64,000 nt of DNA from an uncultured Candidatus Melainabacteria bacterium (lineage in GTDB: Bacteria > Cyanobacteriota > Vampirovibrionia > Gastranaerophilales > Gastranaerophilaceae): NCBI GenBank assembly GCA_947364235.1, contig CANARY010000002.1, forward strand, positions 124,001 through 188,000, read 5' to 3'. The translations under genes were made by a program, and so were the position numbers. Positions 50,997 through 61,674 of the stretch are shown here, piece by piece; position 1 is the first letter of the stretch, and the number at the start of each line of letters is the position of its first letter. Below the pieces are notes generated by a model. That model did not search any database. It saw only the letters and a list, made by a program, of their open reading frames with translations, and was not told the origin of the DNA.

Positions 50997-51063
50997 GTAG
51001 TTTTCAAAACCACCCTCCCCCGCATTTACCCCCCGCATTTACCCCCTGCATTTACCCCCCCCC
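50997..51063. repeat. ATTTACCCC-family repeat with three tandem 13-bp units and C9 tract
   Basis: After GTAGTTTTCAAAACC come three 13-bp units (starting 51022, 51035, 51048) of GCATTTACCCCC(C/T), the last ending in nine C. The same head and tail occur at 59747-59784 and 61690-61865. The C-tract directly abuts the -35 box of the MFS promoter. Confidence 0.75.
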
Positions 51064-51092
51064 TTGACTCTCTTTTTACTTAGCTGTAAATT
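51064..51092 (+). promoter_or_regulatory. sigma-70 promoter of the MFS gene
   Basis: TTGACT (51064-51069) and TAAATT (51087-51092) are 17 bases apart. The -35 box directly touches the C-run of the upstream repeat, and the ATG (51103) is ten bases downstream of the -10 box. Its presence argues against the TTG start at 51064. Confidence 0.55.
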
Positions 51093-51102
51093 AGTCTTTG
51101 GT

Positions 51103-52335
51103 ATGAAAAACAAAGGTATACTTTTTACATTAATATTGTTGGGAGCATTTTTTTATTTCTTTGCTAATTTTCAAAGAATAGCGATTCCCGGTGCTATTTT
51201 TGATTTGCTTCAGCACGAACTTGATGTAAGTGCGCCTTATATTACTGCTTTTGGCGCAATTTTTATGTATATCTATGCTTTTAATCAGCTGGTGATTGGA
51301 GTTCTCGTTGACAGATACGGCGGCTTAAGGGTGATGCTCGCAGGCGGAATACTACTCGGGATTGGCGCGCTGCTATTCCCGCTATCATCTAATTTACCTC
51401 TTATGTATTTTTCAAGAGCACTGGTAGGACTTGGCGGAAGTACTTTTTACTTGAGTTTGATAAGAGAGCTTCGGGGATTGTTTTCGGATAAAAACTTCGG
51501 GCTTGCTATTTCTGTAATGCTTTTTATAGGATATACAGGCGGAATCGCTGCTAATGCTCCTTTTGTATTCGCTATGAAATATATGAGCTGGCGCGAAATT
51601 CTTGTTATTCTAGCAGCTGTGATACTTTTGGGGGCTGCTGTTTTTGCGCTGCTGTCTTCCAGAGTTAAAAAGCCTGAGGTGAACAGACAGGTTAAGCTGA
51701 GAACTTTGCCTTTCAGGTTAGTGCTTCATAAACGCCACAATAGAAACTTGTTTAGCTTTGCGTGCTGCAATTTTGGAATTTCTTATGCTATACAGACTAT
51801 TATCGGTAAAAAATTTCTCGAAGATTTTTGTCTGATGAGCTCTTCAAAAGCAGCTGTTGTGCTTTCTGTAATGGCTGTAGTTGCGGCAGTGTTTAACATT
51901 GTTAATGCTTCTATGTGCAAAATCTGCCATAATCATAGAGTCGTTTTCTTAAAAAACGCAGCTTTGATAACATTTTTGTCTTTGCTTGCAATTTGTATAC
52001 TGCTTATCCTTAATATAAGAACAGATTGGATAGCTTTAATATTCTGTATTCTCGCAGCTAATGCAAGCTTAACATCTCTGCTTGTTCCGGTTTTGCACCT
52101 TACAAACAGAAAAATGGTTTCAAGCACAGCAGTCAGCATAATGAATTTCTGCTTCTTTATGATGGTTGGATTTTTGGGCACTGTTATGGGGTTCTTGTTA
52201 AACCTATTCCCGCCTGAAAAAATTGGAAATGTTCAAGTGTATTCAAGCCATTCTTATCTTGCAGTTTTTGGTTTATTCTTTGCACTGAGCGTGTTTGAAT
52301 TATATAAAGCTCAAAAACTTAGTAATAAATATTAA
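51103..52335 (+). CDS. MFS transporter
   Basis: A 410-residue major facilitator with about 12 hydrophobic helices. The loop 2-3 signature reads VLVDRYGGLRVMLAGG (usual GxLaDRyGrr), and ALVGLGGSTFYLSLIRELRG is motif-like helix 4. Substrate unknown; the group includes sugar-phosphate and organic-anion carriers. The ATG at 51103 is used, because the longer reading frame begins in the promoter. The AbrB-type gene ends one base after it on the opposite strand. Confidence 0.85.
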   Translation: MKNKGILFTLILLGAFFYFFANFQRIAIPGAIFDLLQHELDVSAPYITAFGAIFMYIYAFNQLVIGVLVDRYGGLRVMLAGGILLGIGALLFPLSSNLPLMYFSRALVGLGGSTFYLSLIRELRGLFSDKNFGLAISVMLFIGYTGGIAANAPFVFAMKYMSWREILVILAAVILLGAAVFALLSSRVKKPEVNRQVKLRTLPFRLVLHKRHNRNLFSFACCNFGISYAIQTIIGKKFLEDFCLMSSSKAAVVLSVMAVVAAVFNIVNASMCKICHNHRVVFLKNAALITFLSLLAICILLILNIRTDWIALIFCILAANASLTSLLVPVLHLTNRKMVSSTAVSIMNFCFFMMVGFLGTVMGFLLNLFPPEKIGNVQVYSSHSYLAVFGLFFALSVFELYKAQKLSNKY

Positions 52336-57677: not shown

Positions 57678-58865
57678 ATGACAATTTTAGCAGCGTTTAT
57701 TCTTGGAGCAGCTATTGCTTCCGGTGTTACTTATATTATCTATTCAAAGAAAATTCTTTCTCTTAAAGAAGAGATAATAACTTTGAATGCAAAAAGCAAG
57801 TCCGCAGAAGAGCTGCAGGAAATTATTAAACGCGATTTTGTACAGCTTGCAAACGAAACAATAAAGAATGAGCAGGAAGATTTGAGAAAACAAAATCGCG
57901 AGACTTTAGAAGAAAAAATTCTCCCGCTGACAAAAGAGCTGGGCGAGTTTAAAGCTAAAATCGAAAGGTTTAATCTTTCTGGAGTTGAAAATACTACTAA
58001 AATTGTTGAGCAAATAGGTAATTTGGAGAAAAACAACAAAATTATTGAGCAGGAAGCTAAAAACCTTGTTGAAGCTCTGACTAAAAATCAGAATGTTAAA
58101 GGTTCTTATGGTGAAGATTTGCTTGATACAATTCTTCAGTCTTGCGGTATGGTAGAAGGAATTCATTATGCTAAGCAGGTGGTTACGACTTCTTCAAGCC
58201 TTAAAGACAATGAAGAGCATATTGTAAGACCTGATGTTGTGATTAATCTGCCAAATAGCCACCATCTTATTATTGATTCGAAAGTTACTTTAACAAGCTA
58301 TCTTGAGTATGTTAAGGATGAAACTAAGCTCAAAGAGTTTAAAAGTGAAGTTAAAAAGAGGATTGCGGATTTAGCCAATAAAAATTATCAGAACGCAGGT
58401 GATTTGTCACAGCCGGACTTTGTTTTGATGTACATGCCGGTTGAGACTTCTGTAAATCTTTTATATGAAGACTATGATTTGATTAATAGTGCTTATAGAG
58501 CAAATATTATTATTGTCGGAACATCTTCTCTGCTTGCAACAATAAGGCTTGTCAATCAGCTTATGGCACAGCAGAAACAGAAGGAAAGCATTAACCAAAT
58601 TGTAAATGCCGGAACTAATTTATATGAAACTTTTGTTCAATTCTGTGAAGATTTGATTGATGTACAGAAACGCTTTGAAGATGTTGGTAAAAAGCTGAAT
58701 ACAACAATTAACAGGTTTAGACGCGGCAATAAAAATAAGCCTAGTTTATTTTCTCAGGTTGAAGCTTTGCGCGATTTTGGAATAAGTACAAGTAAGCAAA
58801 TTCCGGATAAGCTTTTGATTGAAGCAGAAGAAGATGAGTTTGAAGGTGTGTTTGCAAATGACTAA
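57678..58865 (+). CDS. rmuC: DNA recombination protein RmuC
   Basis: A 395-residue protein with an N-terminal transmembrane helix (1-20), a long coiled coil (about 25-135) and the RmuC nuclease-like domain (GSYGEDLLDTILQSCGMVEG, IIDSKVTLTSYLEY, PDFVLMYMPVETSVNLL). RmuC limits inversion of short repeats and acts in DNA repair; the PD-(D/E)xK-like core is only inferred. The start is ATG 57678 after GAGGTGG. It overlaps the response regulator by eight bases. Confidence 0.92.
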   Translation: MTILAAFILGAAIASGVTYIIYSKKILSLKEEIITLNAKSKSAEELQEIIKRDFVQLANETIKNEQEDLRKQNRETLEEKILPLTKELGEFKAKIERFNLSGVENTTKIVEQIGNLEKNNKIIEQEAKNLVEALTKNQNVKGSYGEDLLDTILQSCGMVEGIHYAKQVVTTSSSLKDNEEHIVRPDVVINLPNSHHLIIDSKVTLTSYLEYVKDETKLKEFKSEVKKRIADLANKNYQNAGDLSQPDFVLMYMPVETSVNLLYEDYDLINSAYRANIIIVGTSSLLATIRLVNQLMAQQKQKESINQIVNAGTNLYETFVQFCEDLIDVQKRFEDVGKKLNTTINRFRRGNKNKPSLFSQVEALRDFGISTSKQIPDKLLIEAEEDEFEGVFAND

Positions 58866-59553
58866 GATTCTGGTTGTTGATGATGATGCTGCAATAAATG
58901 AGCTTATTAAAGTTAATCTTGAGCTTCAGGGGTTTGAAGTTGTACAAGCTTTCAATGGAATTGAAGGATTTGCAAAAGCTAAACAAGAAGAGCCGGCGCT
59001 TGTTATTCTTGATGTGATGATGCCGGAAGTTGACGGTTATACAGTTGCCAGAAGAATTCGGCAGTCTCAGGAGCTTGCTGAGCTTCCGATTATTATGCTT
59101 ACTGCGCTTTCAGAACTCCATAACAAAGCTGAAGGGTTTGATATTGGCGTGGATGATTATCTTACAAAACCTTTTGAAGCAGAAGAACTTCTTATGCGTG
59201 TTCGCGCGCTTTTGAAGCGTACTAATCAGATTCCGAAATCTTCTGCTGTGCGCGAGCTGCTGACATATAAAGAAGTTACGCTTCTGCCAGAATCTTACAG
59301 CGTGCAGATAAACGATAAAATTCAAAAGCTTACTCCAATTGAGTTTGATATATTTAACCTGCTTTTCCAAAACCACGGAAACATGGTGTCCGGAGCAAAG
59401 CTTTTAAAAGATATCTGGGGATATGATCCGGATGACAATGTTGAGACTATACGCGTTCATATAAGGCATTTAAGAAGTAAGATTGATAAAATTTCTGACG
59501 GCAAAAAATATATAGAAACAATTTATGGCGGCGGATATAAGCTGAATATTTAG
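58858..59553 (+). CDS. OmpR/PhoB-family response regulator
   Basis: A 231-residue two-domain regulator. The receiver has acidic residues in LVVDDDAA, the phospho-Asp in VILDVMMPEVDGY, Thr in MLTALS and Lys in YLTKPF. The winged helix carries LTPIEFDIFNLLFQNHGN and the recognition part DDNVETIRVHIRHLRSKI, ending IYGGGYKLN. The ATG at 58858 overlaps rmuC by eight bases. No histidine kinase adjoins, so it is an orphan here. It may regulate the genes downstream, but no evidence is seen. Confidence 0.92.
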   Translation: MTKILVVDDDAAINELIKVNLELQGFEVVQAFNGIEGFAKAKQEEPALVILDVMMPEVDGYTVARRIRQSQELAELPIIMLTALSELHNKAEGFDIGVDDYLTKPFEAEELLMRVRALLKRTNQIPKSSAVRELLTYKEVTLLPESYSVQINDKIQKLTPIEFDIFNLLFQNHGNMVSGAKLLKDIWGYDPDDNVETIRVHIRHLRSKIDKISDGKKYIETIYGGGYKLNI

Positions 59554-59637
59554 ACGTAAATTTTTGTAACAATTATTTAACAAAGTGTTATAAATTATAT
59601 CTATGTGGAATATATTAGGTATAAGGATATGTTTTAC

Positions 59638-59721
59638 ATGGAAAAGTTTTTGTCAGAATTGAATAATCGCCAAAACCCTTGCTCTGACATGGTTACAGCT
59701 GCTCGGGGGGGGGGGCTTTAG
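59638..59721 (+). CDS. 27-residue leader ORF with an 11-G tract, upstream of flagellin
   Basis: A short ORF (begins MEKFLSELNNRQ, ends in a Gly-rich tail) with AAGGAT nine bases before the ATG at 59638. It contains a run of eleven G (59705-59715) and stops at 59719-59721. With G11 it ends early. With ten G the frame stays open through the flagellin ribosome site and stops inside its first codons (TAA at 59800-59802 region). With nine or twelve G it stops about 20 bases before the flagellin. This is exactly how a slipped-strand switch works, but translation of the leader is not proven. Confidence 0.55.
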   Translation: MEKFLSELNNRQNPCSDMVTAARGGGL

Positions 59722-59724
59722 GAG

Positions 59725-59740
59725 CTTGGCTTTTGCCAAA
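59725..59740 (+). other. hairpin TTGGC-TTTT-GCCAA before flagellin
   Basis: A perfect 5-bp stem with a four-T loop, between the G-tract and the flagellin ribosome site. It might be a weak structure in the leader mRNA. Confidence 0.4.
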
Positions 59741-59746
59741 CGCCTA

Positions 59747-59784
59747 TTTTGTAGTTTCAATACCGGACTAAATATATTTACCCC
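59747..59784 (+). repeat. ATTTACCCC-family repeat upstream of the flagellin
   Basis: TTTTGTAGTTTCAATACC at the start and ATATTTACCCC at the end, with GGAGGTGCT (the flagellin ribosome site) following. Head (TTTGTAGT) and tail (ATTTACCCC) are shared with the units after the flagellin gene and the head/tail ahead of the MFS gene. Confidence 0.65.
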
Positions 59785-59793
59785 GGAGGTGCT

Positions 59794-61674
59794 ATGGCAA
59801 TAACCATTAACACCAACCTTTCATCTTTGATTACTCAATCAAACCTCAAACAATCCACCTTTGGTCTCAACCAGGCGATTGAGCGAATGACAACGGGATT
59901 TAAAATAAATGGAGCGAAAGACAACGCTGCAAATTATTCAATCTCGACTCAAATGAGTACGAAATTAAGCGCATATCAGGTGGCAGAAGACAATGCAGCG
60001 ACCGGCTTGGATTTGCTCACAACTGCTATGGACAGTCTGGATACAGTGTCTTCCAACTTATCCAGAATTAGAGATTTAGCAGAGCAGGCAGCAAATGGCA
60101 CTTATGGTGAAAGCTCATTAAAAGCTATTCAGTTGGAAATAAATGCAAGGCTTGAAGAGTGTAATAGAATTTTAGAAACAACAGAATATAATAAGATAAA
60201 GTTGTTTCAGGCAGAGCCGCCAGAACCGGAAAACGGCGGTAGTTTTATAGAAAAAATTACACCATTAAGTGCAGAAGAGGCTGTTGCTCAAGGTTACATA
60301 TTAATACGAACTGCGGATGAATTGCAGGCTATGCAGGACAATCTGGCTGGTAAATATATTTTGATGAATAATATCGACTTAGAAGGATTTGATTGGAATC
60401 CTGTAGGTATTGATTATAGAAATGTGTTTACTGGAGAATTTAATGGTAACGGGCATGTTATTCAAAATTTAACCATTAAATTAAGAGGTGCAAACTATAA
60501 TGCTCTTTTTGGTCGCACAGAAGGTGCAAAGATAGAGAATGTCGGTATTGAAAATGTACAATTAGTGTCTGAAACAGAAGATGCTTATGGCAGTTCTATA
60601 GCTTCTATTATTGCTTATGCAGGCGGAACAACTGTAACTAATTGTTATGCAGCCGGTAGTTTTCACGATGCCAAAATCTCCGGGCGTATAGGAGGTTTAG
60701 TTGCCTATGCAGAAAATACTAATATATCAGCTTGTTATACAGATGTTGATATAATTGCTAAGAATAGGCTGTTTGATAAAACTTATGCAGGGGGACTGGT
60801 AGGGGAGATGGAGTATGGTTCTGTAAACAATAGTTTTTCTCACGGTAACATTGTCACGTCAGAAATTACATACAGTGGCGGGTTTGCTGCTTACTTAGAC
60901 TCAGGATTTATTACAAATTGTTTTGCAACCGGAGATGTTGAATCAGATCGTTCTTCAGGAGGTTTTCTGTCAGCTTCTAGTAATGGCAGTTCAACGATTG
61001 TAATAAATAAATTGCTTACGGGATGTTATTCTACCGGAAAAGTAGTTGGTAATATTTATGATGACGTCGGTGGTTTTATGGGCTTTTTATCAGGTGAAGC
61101 AAAAGATTGTTACTGGAATACTGAAACTGCAGGTCAATCGAAAGGTGTTGGGCGATATACTGTTTTTAAAGATTACATTGATGGTACACGAGGTGTAACA
61201 ACGACTGAGATTGAAGAGTTGAAAACAAATGGAACACTTTTTAATCCGACTTTAAAAACAGCAGTGTTTCCTGTTGAAACATTGGAGCTTCCAAATGCAA
61301 TATCTTTTCAGGTGGGAGTTAATTCAAATGAATCGTCTCAAATTTCTCTGGATTTAGGTTTCTCACTAAAACTTGCATTGAATTGTATGGATTCTGCCTC
61401 AGCACGAAATGGGTTATTAAAGATAGATAGCTATCTAAATAAAATAAACGAAAAACAAACCGAATACGGTGCATGCCAGAACCGGTTAGAAAGCGCTTTA
61501 GAAGAGATTAATACACATTACGAAAATCTTCTATCCAGCTGTTCAACATTGAGAGACGCAGATGTAGCTCAGGAGAGCTCGGCTTATATTAGAAACCAAA
61601 TTTTACAGCAGGCGGGTGCGGCTTTGATTGCAACTGCTAATCAAACACCAGCGATTGCGTTGCAGCTGCTATAA
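59794..61674 (+). CDS. flagellin with GLUG-type repeat domain in place of D2/D3
   Basis: A 626-residue flagellin. The N-terminal D0/D1 domain (1-145) is typical: INTNLSSLITQSNL, QAIERMTTGFKINGAKDNAA, ATGLDLLTTAMDSLD. The C-terminal D1/D0 (about 500-626) ends ILQQAGAALIATANQTPAIALQLL. Residues about 150-480 are unlike normal flagellin. They contain a FIVAR-like start (ADELQAMQDNLAGKYIL) and several GLUG-type repeats (GGLVAYAENT, GGLVGEMEYG, GGFAAYLDSG) with Cys pairs (NCYAAG, ACYTDV, NCFATG) usual in beta-helix adhesins. The ribosome site is GGAGG. Preceded by the G-tract leader and followed by the 51-bp array. A flagellum with a surface-exposed adhesin-like domain is inferred. Confidence 0.88.
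   Translation: MAITINTNLSSLITQSNLKQSTFGLNQAIERMTTGFKINGAKDNAANYSISTQMSTKLSAYQVAEDNAATGLDLLTTAMDSLDTVSSNLSRIRDLAEQAANGTYGESSLKAIQLEINARLEECNRILETTEYNKIKLFQAEPPEPENGGSFIEKITPLSAEEAVAQGYILIRTADELQAMQDNLAGKYILMNNIDLEGFDWNPVGIDYRNVFTGEFNGNGHVIQNLTIKLRGANYNALFGRTEGAKIENVGIENVQLVSETEDAYGSSIASIIAYAGGTTVTNCYAAGSFHDAKISGRIGGLVAYAENTNISACYTDVDIIAKNRLFDKTYAGGLVGEMEYGSVNNSFSHGNIVTSEITYSGGFAAYLDSGFITNCFATGDVESDRSSGGFLSASSNGSSTIVINKLLTGCYSTGKVVGNIYDDVGGFMGFLSGEAKDCYWNTETAGQSKGVGRYTVFKDYIDGTRGVTTTEIEELKTNGTLFNPTLKTAVFPVETLELPNAISFQVGVNSNESSQISLDLGFSLKLALNCMDSASARNGLLKIDSYLNKINEKQTEYGACQNRLESALEEINTHYENLLSSCSTLRDADVAQESSAYIRNQILQQAGAALIATANQTPAIALQLL

Follow-up and report, generated by a model that had tools for sequence, protein, structure and literature searches.

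The window analyzed here, a 64,000-nt stretch from the 1.93-Mb draft genome (12 contigs) of an uncultured Candidatus Melainabacteria bacterium, contains the gene for a large flagellin and, upstream of it, a short leader ORF carrying an uninterrupted run of eleven G residues (Table 1). Named relatives of this flagellin come mostly from Candidatus Gastranaerophilales (Melainabacteria) assemblies. The first-pass annotation had opened the leader at the ATG at 59638, with AAGGAT upstream, and had given it 27 codons and a G11 tract at 59705-59715; all of these details match the sequence. There is another in-frame ATG at 59629, and because it abuts the AAGGAT, 59638 is the start with the usual spacing. 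In one relative (L050), the equivalent of the first ATG runs into a stop after two more codons and it is the second that opens the leader. The motif AAGGATATG at the AAGGAT site is common to many leaders. At G11 the leader peptide would read MEKFLSELNNRQNPCSDMVTAARGGGL and then end.

The response regulator gene on the 5' side is conserved in relatives, and in those with a readable flank different genes come next. Direct orthologs beside it were therefore set aside as a route of comparison, and the putative switch was followed via flagellin paralogs and a sequence model. The promoter-like module occurs many times per genome, including before flagellins that have no switch; its function as a promoter is inferred.

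Table 1. Features of the leader-flagellin locus, in window coordinates
Feature	Position	Strand	Remarks
Response regulator gene, OmpR/PhoB type	58861..59553	+	upstream, outside the switch
Promoter-like module GTAAATTTTTGTAAC..GTTATAAATT..TGTGGAAT	59557..59622	+	blastn matches (query bases 1-65) throughout the genus
AAGGAT, ribosome-site-like	59623..59628	+	9 nt 5' of leader ATG
Leader ORF as assembled	59638..59721	+	G11, 27 codons, TAG stop at 59719-59721; predicted OFF
Conserved block spanning the tract, shared by flagellin leaders in the genus (..AAACCC..CATG..TTC-Gn-..)	59669..59730	+	model R1 and alignment A1
G11 tract, proposed switch	59705..59715	+	homologous pure tracts G8-G15
Stop for G9/G12 (OFF)	59769..59771	+	22 nt 5' of flagellin ATG
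Flagellin ribosome site, GGAGG	59785..59789	+	
Flagellin, 626 aa	59794..61674	+	Flagellin_N (5-140), Flagellin_C (543-626), long central insert with GLUG motif
Stop for G10/G13 (predicted ON)	59801..59803	+	overlaps flagellin start

The three frames that leave the tract fare as the first-pass annotation had described. That of G11 stops at 59719, that of G9 or G12 ends about 20 bases short of the flagellin, at 59769, and that of G10 or G13 crosses the flagellin ribosome site (59785-59789) and ATG (59794) to end just inside the flagellin (59801-59803). Taken by itself, the arrangement in the window is not beyond chance, since 41% of dinucleotide shuffles of the 78-nt gap also leave an out-of-frame ORF open across the flagellin start.

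Recurrence of the leader and the length of its tract

The window genome has 11 flagellin matches. A second complete locus, on contig C5, joins a large flagellin to its own leader (MSTIKTKNRSNPCCDMLIAV-RGGG), again with G11, and the pre-tract text shared by the C5 and window copies is AATCGC..AAACCCTTGCT..GACATG.TTA.AGCTG.TC. Other copies sit at contig ends (L167, L168, L364 and L365): C10 at its start and C11 at its end terminate identically within further leader copies, while C12 and C7 both begin identically inside flagellin N-termini. From these shared termini it is inferred that two more leader-flagellin copies were most likely broken in the assembly at a repeat they have in common, of which the tract would be part. 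Runs of at least ten G are rare: the 1.93 Mb contain only a handful, some of which are at contig ends, and two of those away from contig ends lie directly upstream of flagellins.

Across the genus, represented by about 65 species, a model built only on the sequence around the tract recovers copies by the tens, and in species from different assemblies the tract stands at the same position. Strong matches lie mostly before flagellins or at contig ends. Orphan leaders are few: three (L324, L329 and L340), beside genes such as dnaJ and rplI, have the tract with no flagellin downstream. The match of model R1 to the window copy (G000:C2:183669-183730, E 3.4e-8) is not independent, since that copy was in the set from which R1 was built. 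The layout is also present in a neighbouring genus (g31), where genome G150 carries a G9 tract predicted to be ON. It was not found with the short flagellins read in the genus or with long flagellins in genus g30; outside the genus, long flagellins of G169 are without the leader.

About 30 nt of DNA before the tract (59669-59704 in the window, alignment A1) are conserved between distant copies despite being read in two frames, as ASNPLVVMLF in some copies and as CLKPACSHAF in others. This conservation may reflect recombination among the copies or an unknown role of the RNA or DNA.

If the tract were a switch, its length should be unstable, and near-identical paralogs within one genome do differ, as the first-pass idea of a coupling switch predicts. 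Genome G029 has five copies whose 130-nt upstream flanks are 95-99% identical and whose tracts are G11, G11, G13, G13 and G14; in G012, four copies with flanks 95-98% identical have G12, G12, G10 and G10. Two marks of a contingency locus are thus present, a slippable homopolymer (about 8 or more, far above chance at a functional position) and its variation in length between near-identical copies. These copies are paralogs in draft assemblies, with one genome per species, and not population reads, so length variation within a strain is only inferred; an effect of tract length on flagellin expression is predicted from the frames alone. Individual tract lengths are uncertain as well, because every genome is a draft assembly and several tracts lie at contig ends. 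One contig (L177, G070:C2) ends in 65 C at the expected site of a leader tract, a probable assembly artefact.

Among pure tracts of at least 8 G, 6 leave the leader open and 23 closed, a split not far from the one third expected under free switching; interrupted or short tracts are open in 4 copies and closed in 3. Four tract-less leaders read individually (L044, L053, L179/L335 and L188) are all in the open frame. Such a pattern would be expected if intact tracts switch freely and the functional frame becomes fixed once a tract is lost, with the reservation that the numbers are small and some of the copies are related.

Homopolymers are not confined to leaders. A DNA methyltransferase gene in the window genome (L102, G000:C7, minus strand) has an in-frame G11 near 110033-110043, just before its DFFSGSGTT motif, and is open at G11; a second tract, G9, lies about 570 nt upstream. 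It is a candidate for a conventional phase-variable methyltransferase. An orthologous non-flagellin gene (MINSTGYYNFYANTQTLPQRAFRGG..) in two species (L347, G067:C48; L351, G003:C138) carries coding poly-G of G11 and G10; both copies are closed, the first being open at G12 and the second at G9. Ordinary coding tracts, too, are in use in the genus. Elsewhere in the window, a C9 run (51055-51063) stands just before a transporter-like ORF (51064-52335) and belongs to a short CATTTACCCCC repeat. The mirror form of this repeat, GGGGGTAAATG, occurs commonly in the genus, inflating counts of poly-G.

Reading frames between tract and flagellin

Wherever the flagellin start of a copy could be read, each of the three frames leaving the tract was traced to its stop. 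Copies were clustered by similarity of the gap, giving 27 independent clusters, and compared with 500 shuffle trials. In 24 of the 27 clusters, a frame out of phase with the flagellin runs open from the tract into the flagellin, its stop falling 1-16 nt beyond the first base of the flagellin ATG, against a shuffle expectation of 8.0 +/- 1.7 and a maximum of 13 in any trial. The pattern across the family is far beyond chance. In gaps of at least 100 nt, 17 of 21 copies are open and 1.9 would be expected; some open frames span 382, 436, 502 and 511 nt in which the sequence is otherwise not conserved. An upstream stop that overlaps the downstream start, one mark of translational coupling, is therefore found in homologs (24/27), and in the window at G10/G13 only. 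The remaining two frames typically stop soon, at a median of 7 and 25.5 nt past the tract, values not far off those of shuffles (10 and 33).

The frame in phase with the flagellin is closed in 27 of 27 clusters. By phase, the open gaps number 0 in frame and 19 and 6 out of frame, where shuffles give 2.95, 5.27 and 3.78. The design is accordingly one of overlap and not of fusion, and conventional phase variation by a coding tract, with the tract in the flagellin frame or the leader fused to it, can be discarded. The first-pass proposal that the tract switches coupling of leader and flagellin, and not the frame of the flagellin itself, is supported to the extent that sequence alone allows such an inference.

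There are misfits. Four complete copies, in three clusters, lack the open frame. Two of them are sister copies in G087 that share a 122-nt repeat insertion (2 mod 3), which breaks the frame; the third sister has no insertion and is open across 511 nt. In short-gap copies, moreover, the other frames end just 10-40 nt 5' of the ATG (10-15 nt in the C5 copy), and re-initiation might still occur from such OFF-frame stops.

Effects of the tract on the flagellin ribosome site were considered separately. Pairing of the tract with that site, or its release by the tract, was rejected: removing the tract shifts predicted accessibility only from 0.22 to 0.23. Flagellins behind a switch do have less accessible predicted sites than switch-less ones (0.35 vs 0.75), but shuffled upstream sequence gives the same value as native, so occlusion is not counted as support, and structural coupling through an occluded site has no independent backing. 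Since the flagellins behind the switch keep good ribosome sites of their own (GGAGG), the OFF state is perhaps low, not nil.

Alternative explanations

It might be held that the tract is a chance homopolymer, possibly mis-assembled, in a decayed leader without effect. The window locus would not on its own contradict this, and poly-G/C junk does occur at contig ends; the shared position of the tract in species from different assemblies, and open frames far in excess of shuffles, leave the idea barely tenable. A functional peptide, in which case the extended leader would encode a small protein, secreted or regulatory, that merely has the flagellin as its neighbour, seems just as hard to sustain. 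Leader N-termini do share a short NPLVVMLF-like motif and an expandable glycine run. Codon differences between close pairs of leaders, however, are mostly non-synonymous (84, against 24 synonymous), and a conserved leader protein was rejected on this basis as the sole function. Downstream of the tract, moreover, the leader is unconserved: this portion can be anywhere between about 15 and 170 residues long, shows no general similarity and consists in part of intergenic repeats. On both counts the peptide is unlikely to be the point, and what appears to be maintained is the open frame and not the peptide sequence. The repeats are of a kind found genus-wide, CCCTCGCCCCTTGNGGGAGAGGG..AATTTCAAGTTGAGC..AAACTTAGAAATTCGGG..GAGGGG, and lie inside leader ORFs in six gaps (L317, L322, L323, L327, L346 and L352); as with in-frame palindromic elements, they mostly leave the frame open.

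The tract could also act as RNA and not by frame, its length tuning the binding of a C-rich small RNA or the structure of the leader, as the G-repeat of H. pylori tlpB does with RepG. A variable G-repeat in an mRNA leader is indeed the RepG/tlpB situation (PMC8295292), and the pre-tract motif is conserved even though different copies read it in two frames. Such a mechanism does not predict frame-specific openness over hundreds of nucleotides or the open frame kept in tract-less copies. Only three C-G pairs with essentially no covariation were predicted around the tract, and Rfam gave no match there; we consider a purely RNA-based effect very improbable. Less remote, if still unlikely as the whole account, is a transcriptional effect of the same phase-variable leader, in which an open leader would keep ribosomes behind RNA polymerase and block Rho-type termination before the flagellin, the overlapping stop being simply where the open frame must end. 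Open frames of up to 511 nt exceed the needs of local re-initiation, and the other frames end within tens of nucleotides of the tract, both of which suit polarity. It does not account for the dominance of one out-of-frame phase (19 vs 6), and many leader-flagellin gaps, at just 36-85 nt, are short for polarity. The two effects may act jointly; translational coupling is the simplest reading, and a contribution from polarity protection cannot be separated from it by sequence analysis.

Proposed mechanism and known systems

The reading considered likely is that a slippage-driven, phase-variable leader ORF switches the translational coupling of large variable flagellins, and possibly polarity as well. 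The G tract would be a contingency locus within a translated leader, translation of the leader being itself inferred, and slippage by one base would shift the leader frame. In the ON state (here G10 or G13), ribosomes on the leader would continue across the entire leader-flagellin gap and stop at the flagellin start; coupling or re-initiation would then give translation of the flagellin, and the mRNA would remain coated with ribosomes. A leader in either of the other frames would end before the flagellin, usually soon after the tract, with a presumed drop to low flagellin output. The window copy, at G11, is predicted to be OFF. Each large variable flagellin paralog would have one such independent switch.

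With moderate confidence, this can be extended to a multi-locus switch of flagellar antigens, in which each large variable flagellin, coupled or uncoupled by its own poly-G leader, adds to a combinatorial filament repertoire in a host-associated, non-photosynthetic cyanobacterial lineage. The leader would then be free filler, able to take up even intergenic repeats provided that one frame is left open. Flagellins of motile gut Melainabacteria are predicted to be recognized by TLR5 (PMC3787301), and the scheme suggests random filament variation in these bacteria. If it is correct, the switch is a disposable upstream frame whose sole task is to bring ribosomes to an intact flagellin gene or to withhold them from it; the flagellin frame would remain untouched, and the device could serve any downstream gene. 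Even where expression data are lacking, genomes can be screened for its signature, namely two closed frames and a third that runs open to an overlapping stop.

Most known cases of homopolymer phase variation come from culturable pathogens, in which the tract lies within the switched gene or in the promoter of that gene. The poly-G and poly-C loci of Campylobacter, Neisseria and H. pylori resemble the present case in homopolymer slippage, in affecting surface structures and in ON/OFF control by frame, but there the tract is inside the switched gene, whereas here it is carried by a distinct ORF upstream, and the frame of the flagellin never changes. The nearest analogue is the phase-variable lex2A/lex2B pair of H. 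influenzae, in which lex2A, a small ORF ahead of lex2B, carries a repeat that influences lex2B. That system is a single locus for a glycosyltransferase, in contrast to a G tract at many flagellin loci. The lex2A repeats are tetranucleotides (PMC3116884).

Motility, too, is subject to phase variation by coding tracts, in fliP of H. pylori and flhA of C. coli, to judge from the titles of works cited in PMC2831843. Stochastic choice of filament antigen is shared with the Hin system of Salmonella (PMC11868660), where DNA inversion chooses between two flagellins instead of slippage acting at many independent loci. In H. pylori tlpB/RepG (PMC8295292), a length-variable G-repeat upstream of the start codon likewise affects translation; the tract there is in an untranslated region and control by the sRNA is graded and not frame-dependent, whereas here the tract is in an open leader with a frame-specific continuation. 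Tracts outside the regulated coding sequence are also found at porA, fetA and opc of Neisseria (PMC2791445), where they alter promoter spacing and hence transcription initiation and do not lie within an open leader frame. As for overlapping genes, the survey in PMC3711429 describes coupling in which ORF1 stops no more than about 10 nt from where ORF2 begins, as here, but treats coupling and phase variation as alternative classes, which the flagellin leaders would combine. No literature was found that joins phase variation, translational coupling and flagellin, which is weak evidence because most subscription journals fell outside the search. Taken singly, poly-G contingency loci, coupling of overlapping genes and flagellar phase variation are already known.
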